Below, piece by piece: positions 4,774-39,768 of a stretch of 64,000 bases of DNA (positions are counted from its first letter, which is position 1; every line of letters starts with the position of its first letter). The notes beneath the pieces are model-generated. The model was not told the origin of the DNA, ran no database searches, and saw only the letters and a program-made list of their open reading frames with translations. The stretch lies in assembly GCF_018595675.2 (NCBI RefSeq), contig NZ_CP092333.1, positions 3,372,001-3,436,000 on the forward strand, in the 5' to 3' direction. Made by a program: the position numbers and the translations under genes. This stretch comes from Flavihumibacter fluvii (GTDB lineage: Bacteria; Bacteroidota; Bacteroidia; Chitinophagales; Chitinophagaceae).

Positions 4774-4845
4774 TAGTCCCGACAGGAATCGAACCTGTAT
4801 CTAAAGTTTAGGAAACTTCTATTCTATCCATTGAACTACGGGACC
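4774..4845 (-). tRNA. tRNA-Arg (anticodon CCT)
   Basis: Read on the minus strand, the sequence folds into a full cloverleaf. The acceptor stem GGTCCCG/CGGGACT has a G1.U72 wobble. The D stem is GTTC/GAAT, the anticodon stem GAAGT/ACTTT, and the 7-base anticodon loop TTCCTAA. The T arm is ACAGG-TTCGATT-CCTGT. The loop gives anticodon CCT, which reads AGG (Arg). No CCA is encoded at the 3' end. It stands alone between the decayed region and the VOC gene. Confidence 0.93.
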
Positions 4846-36853: not shown

Positions 36854-37846
36854 TTACCCTAATAGTCCTTGTTGCAGGAGATATTCCGCAATCTGTACAG
36901 CATTTGTTGCAGCACCTTTGCGAAGGTTATCACTTACGATCCACATATTAAGTGTATTGGGTTGAGACTCATCACGACGCAAACGGCCAACAAAAACCTC
37001 ATCCCTTTCATGTGCATCTTTAGGCATCGGATACTTAGCATTGGCCGGATCATCAACTACAACAACGCCTGGAGCTGAAGCAAGTAAAGACCGTACTTCA
37101 TCAAGGTCAAAATCATTGGCGAACTCTACATTTACGCTTTCGCTGTGCCCGCCCATCACCGGAATACGAACCGTAGTTGCAGTAACCCTGATGCTATCGT
37201 CGCGCATGATCTTCTTAGTCTCATTCACCATTTTCATTTCTTCCTTCGTGTAACCGTTATCGAGGAATACATCGATCTGTGGAATGGCATTCATATCAAT
37301 CTGGTATCTGTACGCCATTTCGCCTTCAACCCCCTGCCGCTCATTCATCAGTTGGGTCACGGCTTTAACACCCGTTCCGGTAACGCTTTGGTAGGTAGAT
37401 ACAACCAGCCTTTTAATCTTGTATTTTTTATGCAATGGATTCAGCGCCACCACCATCTGGATGGTAGAACAGTTTGGGTTGGCAATTACTTTATCGCTTC
37501 CGGTAAGGGCATCGGCATTGATCTCAGGGACTACCAGCTTTTTGGTTGGGTCCATCCGCCAGGCAGATGAATTGTCGATGACGGTGATACCGGCTTCCGC
37601 AAACTTAGGGGCCCACTCCAGGGAAGTGCCGCCACCTGCTGAAAACAAAGCCACAGCAGGTTTCGCAGCGATAGCATCGGTCATGCTCACCACCTTGTAT
37701 TTCTTACCCTTGTATTCCACTTCTTTACCAACAGATTTTTCAGAGGCGACTGGAATCAGTTCTGTAACCGGAAAATTACGTTCGGCCAGGACCTGTAACA
37801 TTTTGGTGCCAACTAACCCGGTAGCACCTACAACTGCGACTTTCAT
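36854..37846 (-). CDS. asd: Aspartate-semialdehyde dehydrogenase
   Basis: A 330-residue NADP enzyme that makes aspartate semialdehyde, the branch point to lysine, threonine, methionine and isoleucine. The motifs are VAVVGATGLVGTKMLQVL at the start, FSAGGGTSLEWAPKF, the catalytic cysteine in NPNCSTIQMVVALNPLH, and the VMGGHSESVNVEF substrate histidine region. The length fits. It is a single-gene unit with an unusual 5' leader that holds a short peptide gene and a terminator (see 37870-37990). Confidence 0.96.
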   Translation of the reverse strand: MKVAVVGATGLVGTKMLQVLAERNFPVTELIPVASEKSVGKEVEYKGKKYKVVSMTDAIAAKPAVALFSAGGGTSLEWAPKFAEAGITVIDNSSAWRMDPTKKLVVPEINADALTGSDKVIANPNCSTIQMVVALNPLHKKYKIKRLVVSTYQSVTGTGVKAVTQLMNERQGVEGEMAYRYQIDMNAIPQIDVFLDNGYTKEEMKMVNETKKIMRDDSIRVTATTVRIPVMGGHSESVNVEFANDFDLDEVRSLLASAPGVVVVDDPANAKYPMPKDAHERDEVFVGRLRRDESQPNTLNMWIVSDNLRKGAATNAVQIAEYLLQQGLLG

Positions 37847-37869
37847 GTTCGATTGCTTGCTTTTGGTTT

Positions 37870-37899
37870 AAAAAAAAGCCTCCCCGTTTGGGAAGGCTT
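37870..37899 (-). terminator. Intrinsic terminator in the asd leader (attenuator hairpin)
   Basis: On the minus strand AGCCTTCCC pairs with GGGGAGGCT (one U.G) around a 4-base loop and is followed by eight T. It ends only 23 bases before the asd ATG. No other gene on this strand ends here, as the next gene upstream runs the other way, so its only transcript is the asd one. The stem is perfect only in the minus-strand RNA (a C.A mismatch on the plus strand). Confidence 0.85.
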
Positions 37900-37927
37900 G
37901 AGTCTATTTTGTGAACATACACTACAA

Positions 37928-37990
37928 TTACACACCTTCCTGGTTCGGGAGCTGTTTCTTAATCTTAGTTGTATGTTTCATCATTGTCAT
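37928..37990 (-). CDS. Candidate leader peptide of the asd attenuator
   Basis: A 20-codon open frame that starts with the codons for MTMMKHTTKIKK. Of these first 12 residues, three are Met, three Thr, four Lys and one Ile, all amino acids derived from the Asd product; only His6 is not. It starts about 35 bases behind a TATATTTG promoter element and ends 28 bases before the terminator stem. Its last codons hold GGAAGG, complementary to CCTTCC in the terminator's 5' arm. It has no other features of a working protein. Confidence 0.65.
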   Translation of the reverse strand: MTMMKHTTKIKKQLPNQEGV

Positions 37991-38024
37991 GGAGTGCGAA
38001 TTTAAGCTGCAGGGTTTTTTCACC

Positions 38025-38032
38025 CAAATATA
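38025..38032 (-). promoter_or_regulatory. -7 promoter element TATATTTG for the asd leader
   Basis: A TAnnTTTG match on the minus strand with a TTTTTG about 17 bp upstream of it. It puts the transcript start near 38019, about 30 bases before the leader peptide. It overlaps the oppositely directed element at 38031-38038 by two bases. Confidence 0.6.
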
Positions 38033-38076: not shown

Positions 38077-39768
38077 ATGTTGAGAAAATGCCTGTTGACC
38101 ATAGTTTTATTTTCGGCTGTAACCCTTTCAGCACAAGCTTTTCAGGTGGCCATCACTGAACTGATGCCCGACCCTGAACCAGCCATTTCCTTACCTCCGG
38201 AAGAATTTATTGAACTAACGAATGTTAGTGGCAAACCGATCGATATTTCAGGATGGCAGTTGTCAAATGGCCGGACAACCGCCAGATTACCTGACAGTGT
38301 ATTCCTTGCAGCCGACAGTATCCTGATCATTTGCAGCAGCCGTTCAGCAGATCAGTTTGCCCGGTTTGGAAGCACCCTTGGGGTAACGCACTTTCCTGCT
38401 TTATCCAATGAGGACGACACAATAGTACTAACGAACCTTACAGGTTTAGTGATTCATGCCGTGGCCTATTCCGGCAAATGGTACAGCCGGGAATGGCCAT
38501 CAGGCGGAAGAAGCCTCGAAATGATCCAGCTGCAAAATTCCTGCAGCCAGCAAAACAATTGGGGACCCAGTAAAGCCATTACCGGTGGTACGCCCGGGCA
38601 AGCAAACAGCCTGGCCAGTGAGCCAACAGAAGGCCATCGCTTCACACTTTTATATGCCTTCTGCAAAACCGATAGTGCGGTTGTATTGGTCTTTGACGAT
38701 GCGATCGATGCCGGATCAATCAGCCTCCCGGGTGCCATTCAAACTGATCCGGCTGTACAATTTAATTCAATGCACATTGAGGGCCAATTACATAACCAGT
38801 TAGTTTGTACACTCGCTAAACCCCTGGTCCCGCATCAATTGATTGAAATTAGCGCAGATGGCATTACCAGCTGCCTGCATCAGCCGACGGGTGGCATAAG
38901 GCGGGTGAAAGTTGGCCTCCCAGATCCGGATCCGGAAAAACTGGTCATCAATGAAATACTGTTTGACCCTCCCATAGATGGTGCAGATTACATGGAGTTC
39001 TATAATGCTTCTGATAAGGTGACCAACTTGCAGGACCTCCAGGTTGCAAACAGGAACAGTAGCCGCGAAATCGCCGGTAAAAAAACAATCAGTGCGGGGC
39101 CCAGGTATATATTCCCGGGTGAATACATCGCCATTACAACGGATCCGGATTGGCTCAGCAGGCAATACCTCGTGAAAGATCCTGCAAAGATCGTTACAGT
39201 GGAGGCGCTCCCCGCCTGGCCAAATGAACGGGGAAACGTATTACTCCTCACCACCGATAATTCCATCCTGGATGAATTGATGTATGCTGCTGACTGGCAT
39301 TTTGAACTACTTCGCAATAAAGAAGGTGTTGCATTGGAAAGAAAAGATCCGGGAGCGACCACACAGGATCCGTCGAACTGGCTTTCGGCAGCTACCCATG
39401 CAGGTTATGGTACTCCTGGATATAGCAATTCGCAGTTCATGGCTTTAGCCGGAACTGCACAAAATATTTGGCTGGAACCAGAATTATTCACCCCTAACAG
39501 TGATGGGTTGGATGATGTTTGCAAAATCAGTTACAGGTTCGATCAATCTGGTTTTGTTTTAACCACGAAGATATTTGACCGAAGCGGTATGCTTGTGCGA
39601 ACCCTCGTGAATAATGGACTCTGTGGCCTTCAGGGCTTTTTCCCCTGGGATGGAAAAGATGACAAAAAAAAACAGCTACCACCCAATGTTTACATTGTGG
39701 TAACTGAACTTTTTTCGATAGCCGGCAAAACCATGCGTTTCCGGCATGCCGTTACAATGGGCTATTAA
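38077..39768 (+). CDS. Secreted lamin-tail-domain protein with FlgD/T9SS-like C-terminal domain
   Basis: A 563-residue exported protein. Signal peptide: LLTIVLFSAVTLSAQA. It has two lamin-tail domains: one at about residues 24-160 (ITELMPDPEPAISLPPEEFIELTNVSGKPIDISGWQL) and one at about 290-420 (VINEILFDPPIDGADYMEFYNASDKVTNLQDLQV). The C-terminal part (about 465-563) begins LFTPNSDGLDDVCKISYRF and ends with an Ig-like fold (NGLCGLQGFFPWDGKDDKKKQLPPNVYIV). Such C-terminal domains occur on gliding/type IX-secreted proteins of Bacteroidota. It is likely on or outside the outer membrane; its partner is unknown. Confidence 0.82.
   Translation: MLRKCLLTIVLFSAVTLSAQAFQVAITELMPDPEPAISLPPEEFIELTNVSGKPIDISGWQLSNGRTTARLPDSVFLAADSILIICSSRSADQFARFGSTLGVTHFPALSNEDDTIVLTNLTGLVIHAVAYSGKWYSREWPSGGRSLEMIQLQNSCSQQNNWGPSKAITGGTPGQANSLASEPTEGHRFTLLYAFCKTDSAVVLVFDDAIDAGSISLPGAIQTDPAVQFNSMHIEGQLHNQLVCTLAKPLVPHQLIEISADGITSCLHQPTGGIRRVKVGLPDPDPEKLVINEILFDPPIDGADYMEFYNASDKVTNLQDLQVANRNSSREIAGKKTISAGPRYIFPGEYIAITTDPDWLSRQYLVKDPAKIVTVEALPAWPNERGNVLLLTTDNSILDELMYAADWHFELLRNKEGVALERKDPGATTQDPSNWLSAATHAGYGTPGYSNSQFMALAGTAQNIWLEPELFTPNSDGLDDVCKISYRFDQSGFVLTTKIFDRSGMLVRTLVNNGLCGLQGFFPWDGKDDKKKQLPPNVYIVVTELFSIAGKTMRFRHAVTMGY

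Follow-up and report, generated by a model that had tools for sequence, protein, structure and literature searches.

The leader of the Escherichia coli thr operon, an operon of the aspartate family, combines codons for the end products Thr and Ile with alternative stems and a terminator. For lysine we know of no characterised ribosome-mediated attenuator, and attenuation in bacteria has reportedly been treated by Lopatovskaya (2010) and Vitreschak (2004), whose work may bear on the novelty of the leader described here. In Flavobacterium psychrophilum, structured 5' regions lie before amino-acid operons and give clues for leader peptides, according to the part of PMC9723704 available to us. From Sinorhizobium meliloti, the accessible text of PMC10117765 reports SEP5, an sORF that contains six Thr codons and three Lys codons and lies in the 5' UTR of an "aspartate dehydrogenase" gene, as a possible leader peptide, and the same text presents rnTrpL/trpL of Sinorhizobium as a leaderless leader-peptide attenuator. 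The mechanism is classical, and published clues to leader-peptide attenuation in Bacteroidota exist already (PMC9723704). A preliminary description of the locus analysed here proposed an attenuator of asd and regarded it as new to this phylum. We recognised no description of an asd or dapA attenuator in Bacteroidota in the open-licence literature.

The window, a stretch of 64,000 nucleotides from Flavihumibacter fluvii, carries asd, the gene of aspartate-semialdehyde dehydrogenase, on the minus strand, with a leader and an overlapping antiterminator and terminator placed between promoter and gene (Table 1). The asd product scored 430 bits with the TIGR01296 asd_B profile (cut-off 324), and the asd of a Flavihumibacter MAG is about 92% identical to it. 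As first described, 11 of the first 12 residues of the 20-codon leader frame are Met, Thr, Lys or Ile, the terminator with its T8 tract ends 23 bases before the asd ATG, and GGAAGG (37940-37935) is complementary to CCTTCC in the 5' arm of the terminator. Because the neighbouring gene upstream of asd (38077-39768, plus strand) is divergent from it, the terminator cannot end the transcript of an upstream gene. Of 200 dinucleotide shuffles, 199 fold less well than the 161-nt leader (z -3.36).

Table 1 Features of the asd leader and of the gene that it precedes in the window
Feature	Positions	Strand	Description
-33 promoter element TTTG	38025..38028	-	19 or 20 bases before the TAnnTTTG-like box in 66/74 leaders having the box; 20 bases before TAAATTCG here
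-7 promoter element TAAATTCG	37997..38004	-	Matches 5/6 consensus positions of TAnnTTTG
Predicted transcription start	37992	-	Predicted 5' UTR about 2 nt
Leader ORF MTMMKHTTKIKKQLPNQEGV	37928..37990	-	20 codons, ATG 37990 to TAA 37928
Region 1, 5' arm of 1:2 stem (ACATACAA...)	37964..37976	-	Column-pair scan, 1:2 pairing counts
Ile-Lys-Lys, codons 10-12	37955..37963	-	Immediately precede the switch point; part of none of the three counted stems
Region 2, antiterminator 5' arm GGAAGGT	37934..37940	-	Column-pair scan, 2:3 pairing counts
Region 2 distal part, 3' arm of 1:2 stem (...GTGTATGT)	37915..37928	-	Column-pair scan
Region 3, antiterminator 3' arm GCCTTCC, also part of terminator 5' arm	37891..37897	-	2:3 and 3:4 pairing counts
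Intrinsic terminator, 10-bp stem, AAAC loop, T8	37870..37899	-	Sequence and 3:4 pairing counts; AAGCCTTCCC/AAAC/GGGGAGGCTT (37899-37876), T8 at 37877-37870
asd, aspartate-semialdehyde dehydrogenase, presumed controlled gene	36854..37846	-	ATG at 37846; TIGR01296 asd_B profile

The promoter had been placed at TATATTTG (38032-38025), which does fit the TAnnTTTG consensus, taken here from the accessible text of PMC7366714. As a -7 box, however, this candidate was rejected, since the match is kept in only 7 of 66 leaders and its position matches TAnnTTTG in only 1 of 14 Flavihumibacter. The conserved box is instead TAAATTCG, giving a predicted 5' UTR of about 2 nt rather than about 30. Among the 77 asd leaders that we collected, 74 have a TAnnTTTG-like box (5-6 of 6 positions) 4-14 bases (median 7) before the leader ATG, whereas control scans further upstream found one in 42 of 308, and TTTG-N19/20-TAnnTTTG is the conserved promoter arrangement of asd leaders. 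In the window the box ends 6 bases before the ATG, and the leader is therefore predicted to be nearly leaderless. The 5' UTR estimates, about 2 nt for the window and a median of about 3 nt, follow from taking the box at -12 to -5, the span given for F. psychrophilum in the available part of PMC9723704. Since leaderless mRNAs make up 5.5% in F. psychrophilum and 5' UTRs shorter than 10 nt about 3.7% in Bacteroides thetaiotaomicron (available portions of PMC9723704 and PMC7366714), such leaders are few in both species and the asd leaders form an unusual class. The -33 region of the window (38025-38032) is also a perfect TAnnTTTG and may give a second, longer 5' end. To our knowledge the phylum Bacteroidota is without Shine-Dalgarno sequences, and the near-absent 5' UTR raises the question of how ribosomes load fast enough on such leaders.

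The same arrangement was present in all 14 readable Flavihumibacter upstream regions, the window included; in a fifteenth genome (L006) the region upstream of asd ends at a contig end. A family sample of one genome per genus covered 93 genera of Chitinophagaceae with an upstream region; it was without G019 and G024, G045 had no asd match and part of the G029 region reads N. A positional rule (ATG 76-104 nt before the terminator stem, 10-26 codons) kept 66 of the 93 genera, of which three (G053, G056 and G073) were not leader-like by peptide and were dropped from all counts of 63 and 77. A covariance model built from 77 leaders (14 Flavihumibacter and 63 other genera) matched a leader before asd in 65 of the 93 genera, 63 of which are training rows chosen by position; G081 and G108 were missed by the positional rule and matched by the model. 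The other 28 genera gave no match before asd. On the whole single-contig genome of F. fluvii (5.0 Mb), the window leader, itself one of the training rows, was found with E 9.6e-16 and the next best match with E 0.49; there was no second strong copy of an asd-type leader.

Outside the family sample, 22 of 79 named genome contigs holding asd relatives matched the model. The 57 without a match included all Pedobacter, Mucilaginibacter, Sphingobacterium, Flavobacterium, Algoriphagus, Dyadobacter and Hymenobacter records, five Flavobacterium records having no match before asd, and three MAGs named Chitinophaga pinensis; one of the 79 (L050), with only 46 bases upstream of asd, could not match. In a spread of 247 genomes of the class, 32 matched with E no higher than 0.001, and three of these belong to the window's family. 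Family f22 had matches in 16 of its 32 genomes and f37 in 5 of 8. Of 39 such loci that we read, 20 stand before asd (families f22, f29, f37 and f41), two before thrA and one before hisG; the other 16 precede no gene of the five tested. The 20 asd loci of other families yielded 18 peptides, one locus (L310) having no ATG frame and two peptides being identical. Relatives thus carry a short frame of the composition first noted before asd, the leader being present in 65 of 93 family genera and in four more families of the class.

A scan of all column pairs in a MAFFT alignment recovered three helices, 1:2, 2:3 and 3:4, which were chosen on the same alignment as they were counted on and are to that extent favoured over the slid versions used for comparison. 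The 1:2 stem is paired in 75.0% of cells (slid versions 24-59%) and has 69 doubly changed cells against 31.6 in shuffled alignments, with 8 pairs showing a double change, equal to the shuffled mean (8.1). Pairing in the 2:3 stem reaches 95.0% (slid versions 39-73%), and since this stem is nearly invariant it shows little covariation. The 3:4 stem is paired in 93.7% of cells, with 43 doubly changed cells against 12.7. The covarying stems sought among relatives were thus found for 1:2 and 3:4 in cell counts above shuffles. RNAalifold on the same alignment returned the terminator (3:4) only, at -0.97 kcal/mol.

We then computed folds for the stage at which transcription has reached the end of region 3 and region 4 has not yet been made, and barred bases covered by a ribosome from pairing. 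For the window, pairing of region 3 with upstream bases is 0.75-0.79 for A-site codons 2-13; it is 0.36 at codon 14 and 0.02-0.07 from codon 15 to the stop (0.07 at the stop), and 0.02 without a ribosome. When the 77 leaders were aligned on their last Lys pair, 2:3 pairing averaged 0.83 upstream of the pair and 0.65 on it, dropped to 0.36 after one further codon and 0.22 after two, and was 0.23 at the stop. The difference between stall and stop was 0.57 in leaders and 0.03 in shuffles; it exceeded 0.3 in 62 of 77 leaders, with 15 not above that value, compared with 32 of 308 shuffled controls. With three other ribosome footprints the switch stayed in place to within about one codon. For 21 leaders that were not training rows, namely asd leaders of other families and dapA leaders found with the model (two of 23, without a terminator, were dropped), 2:3 pairing fell from 0.78 to 0.18 at the second codon beyond the Lys pair and 0.13 at the third; one of them (L294) had no clear switch and two retained about 0.45 at the stop. 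Without a ribosome, 2:3 pairing averages 0.60 over the 77 leaders, indicating that not every leader has a strong 1:2 stem. An untranslated leader was expected to terminate, which holds in the window and not on average. It was only in computed folds that we saw an antiterminator which is mutually exclusive with the terminator and has its 5' arm hidden by a ribosome standing at the stop. In these folds the mechanism originally put forward was reproduced, a stall at the Lys and Thr codons freeing GGAAGG and a ribosome at the stop covering it.

The peptide is selected at the codon level. In 66 ORFs chosen by position alone, G053, G056 and G073 included, the frequencies of Lys (0.255 vs 0.149 in dinucleotide shuffles), Thr (0.115 vs 0.089) and Met (0.044 vs 0.017) were each matched by none of 300 shuffles, and Ile was not enriched overall (z 1.3). 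Within 13 Flavihumibacter, pN/pS was 0.11 for codons 4-12 and 0.46 for codons 13-20, summed over non-independent pairs; one of the 14 genomes (L010), in which the codons are shifted, was left out. Selection of this kind suggests that the leader is translated. In 57 of 63 leaders an eight-codon block could be anchored on its first four residues only, leaving places 5-8 free. Of these, 29 have Thr and 10 have Ile at place 6 (39/57 Thr or Ile), and Lys occupies place 7 in 48 and place 8 in 47. A stricter pattern of the whole block (49/63) leaves just places 5 and 6 free, as it demands Lys at place 7 and restricts places 1-4 and 8 to small sets. Thr at place 6 uses all four third bases and Lys at place 4 uses both. 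The counted helices do not explain places 6-8, because these places fall in alignment columns 43-51, which lie outside all three.

His, which is conserved, is enriched as well (0.061 vs 0.034 in shuffles) and is not a pathway product. We rejected it as a signal: its CAT codon lies inside the 1:2 stem. A further point against the attenuator reading is that Lys-rich tracts might instead act as an unstructured linker. Both His (place 2) and, in relatives, Arg (place 5) lie within that stem, and their partner bases co-change in part of the sequences. The asd leaders fall into two length classes, the long peptides stopping just after GGAAGG and the short ones just before it, with about 88 nt from ATG to terminator in both; the C-terminal half of the peptide differs between the two forms. 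An equal role for all four amino acids was also rejected, as Lys is constant, Thr typical of the family, Met mildly enriched and Ile not enriched overall. The four signals proposed at the outset are thus unequally supported, weakly so for Met and Ile, Ile showing only as the alternative to Thr at one codon.

Taken together, anatomy, codon selection and the position of the computed switch make a ribosome-mediated transcription attenuator controlling asd by far the best explanation, and we hold it with considerable confidence. The ORF, the selection on its codons, the three alternative helices, the switch position, the conservation and the link to asd were all observed in sequence and computation. 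RNA polymerase would start about 2 nt before the leader ATG, and a ribosome would begin the nearly leaderless 20-codon ORF. When charged tRNA-Lys or tRNA-Thr (possibly also tRNA-Met or tRNA-Ile) is short, the ribosome would stall in codons 2-12 and break the 1:2 stem, leaving GGAAGG free for CCTTCC (2:3), so that no terminator forms and asd is transcribed. At good supply it would pass Lys-Lys to the stop and cover GGAAGG, and the 3:4 terminator would release a transcript of about 120 nt. We infer that amino-acid supply controls asd in this way under starvation, through translation of the leader. That Lys acts as a signal is very probable, and Thr probably does so too; for Met such a role is conceivable, though on balance doubtful, and we would say the same of Ile. 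As far as sequence comparison goes, Lys appears to be the signal common to all leaders, Thr seems to join it in the window's family, and Met and Ile may do so as well. If true, the Bacteroidota studied would have a defined means of controlling asd, the step that the branches of the aspartate pathway share, and a leader peptide that reads lysine.

Related leaders were found at other genes. Within the family, the model has a strong second match upstream of dapA in seven genomes, which represent five genera (G041, G096, G016, G112, G048, G128 and G036), dapA being identified by TIGR00674 in one genome and by protein match in G016, G036, G041, G048 and G096. By eye, 4 of 30 dapA loci have a leader (G096, G016, G041 and G036) and none was seen in the other 26; the dapA of F. 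fluvii itself (L251) is without one. The codon that is Thr or Ile in 39 of 49 asd leaders is Ser or Val in all five dapA leaders, out of seven, that can be aligned (Fisher p 0.0009; 0.003 with one per genus).

These comparisons bear on whether the attenuator senses Lys alone, with the Thr, Met and Ile codons as passengers or set by RNA structure, which we consider unlikely, though it deserves serious weight. At least three Lys occur in 63 of 66 positional ORFs, and in 18 of 18 asd leaders of other families and 7 of 7 dapA leaders, the latter two sets having been found with the model and so being in part selected for it; the switch point coincides with the Lys pair, and the asd leaders of other families are poor in Thr, with at least two Thr in 3 of 18. 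Against Lys as the sole signal, Thr is enriched in the window's family, where at least two Thr occur in 46 of 63 asd leaders, and the Thr/Ile codon, which no counted stem includes, persists there with a varying third base but has been lost from the five dapA leaders that can be aligned.

Twenty weak family-wide matches were inspected by eye. Seven lie before dapA, five before other amino-acid genes (aspartokinase, lysA, an aminotransferase and two hisG-like genes), and eight look like chance terminators behind or inside other genes. The aspartokinase match is in G109 (L216), with the leader MQIKKHNKMMKCITRR; the lysA match (TIGR01048) is in G111 (L217); that in G104 (L218) has a Lys-containing leader before an aminotransferase gene followed by aspartokinase. 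These three genomes carry Lys-containing leaders at other aspartate-pathway genes and have no model match at asd.

Leaders of other composition were also seen. The hisG (TIGR00070) of F. fluvii is preceded by a His-rich leader, MKQFTQQHHHHFLPSR (L203 1501-1622, C1:1048511-1048632), of similar promoter-ORF-terminator build, and HIHHHH leaders lie before hisG-like genes in L223, L224 and L291. Frames ending in a run of Thr, such as MAFISTYTTTTTTITTR, occur in F. fluvii (C1:2428600-2430100) and five relatives (L262-L267); in these six Flavihumibacter they precede a fused aspartokinase-homoserine dehydrogenase gene, with Ile inside the run in 5 of 6. Upstream of the separate homoserine dehydrogenase gene of five Flavihumibacter (L268-L272), no leader was seen by eye. 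Two f40 genomes have the frames MYNSTIIITIIITTGRNLAEE and MTINNTIITTIITTGIKDGGR (L290, L295). In L289 (G177:C39, family f11), a gene of the nitrite/sulfite reductase family is preceded by two Met/Cys-rich frames in tandem, MKAKKSNMKMMNNGMCCCCAFLWRG and MINQNKMMCCCCKSTERWKW, both with a terminator-like hairpin behind them; together they are a possible tandem cysteine attenuator. Judged from the sequences, codon content appears to follow the downstream gene, with Lys at dapA, Thr at thrA and His at hisG. The leaders before asd, dapA, thrA and hisG, with their different codons, make the link between codon and signal testable by natural comparison.

This dependence on the downstream gene argues against a general sensor of translation stress, in which any slowing of the ribosome gives read-through; a stall anywhere in codons 2-13 does give antitermination in the fold, and even so we regard such a sensor as very improbable. 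Lysine riboswitches exist in other phyla, and a terminator with an alternative stem is compatible with any sensor, such as a metabolite-binding riboswitch or a protein-bound attenuator (for example a lysine-sensing one) in which the open frame is incidental. We give this little credence, given the codon-level selection with Thr/Ile-Lys-Lys codons outside the counted stems, the dependence of the computed switch on ribosome position, and a leader composition that tracks the downstream gene. Moreover, no lysine riboswitch was among the 11 Rfam matches up to E 5; these lax matches held no riboswitch family except gltS, a cis-regulatory RNA, at E 3.1, and Rfam at the gathering score found only a tRNA (4774-4845) in the whole window. 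Equally slight is the chance that the terminated RNA or the peptide acts in trans as an sRNA or small protein, for which a short RNA of about 120 nt is predicted and rnTrpL/peTrpL of Sinorhizobium is a precedent in the accessible text of PMC10117765, as long and short forms of the peptide differ in their C-terminal half and the anatomy of an attenuator accounts for the conservation.

Returning to the ribosome-mediated attenuator, we tentatively propose that one nearly leaderless scaffold may integrate Lys and Thr (perhaps Met and Ile) at asd and may have been copied or re-used in related genera at dapA, aspartokinase, the aminotransferase-aspartokinase operon and lysA with codons re-tuned for each branch, so that codon content would be an evolvable address. 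In its anatomy the element resembles known leaders: its best lax Rfam match is Phe_leader (RF01859; 28.3 bits, E 0.0054, below the gathering score of 55), a family that carries Phe codons, in line with a shared attenuator shape, and Thr_leader (RF00506) scores 14.5 bits against a gathering score of 55. The E. coli thr leader differs from the present one, which is nearly leaderless, has Lys and Thr codons and precedes asd as the gene under presumed control. SEP5 belongs to another phylum and, in the portion of PMC10117765 at hand, is conserved only in Sinorhizobium. The likeness to rnTrpL/trpL, which concerns Trp in Alphaproteobacteria and whose action is described in the same portion as being in trans, is that of a leaderless attenuator. 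The leader peptides indicated in F. psychrophilum share the phylum of the asd leader in the window.
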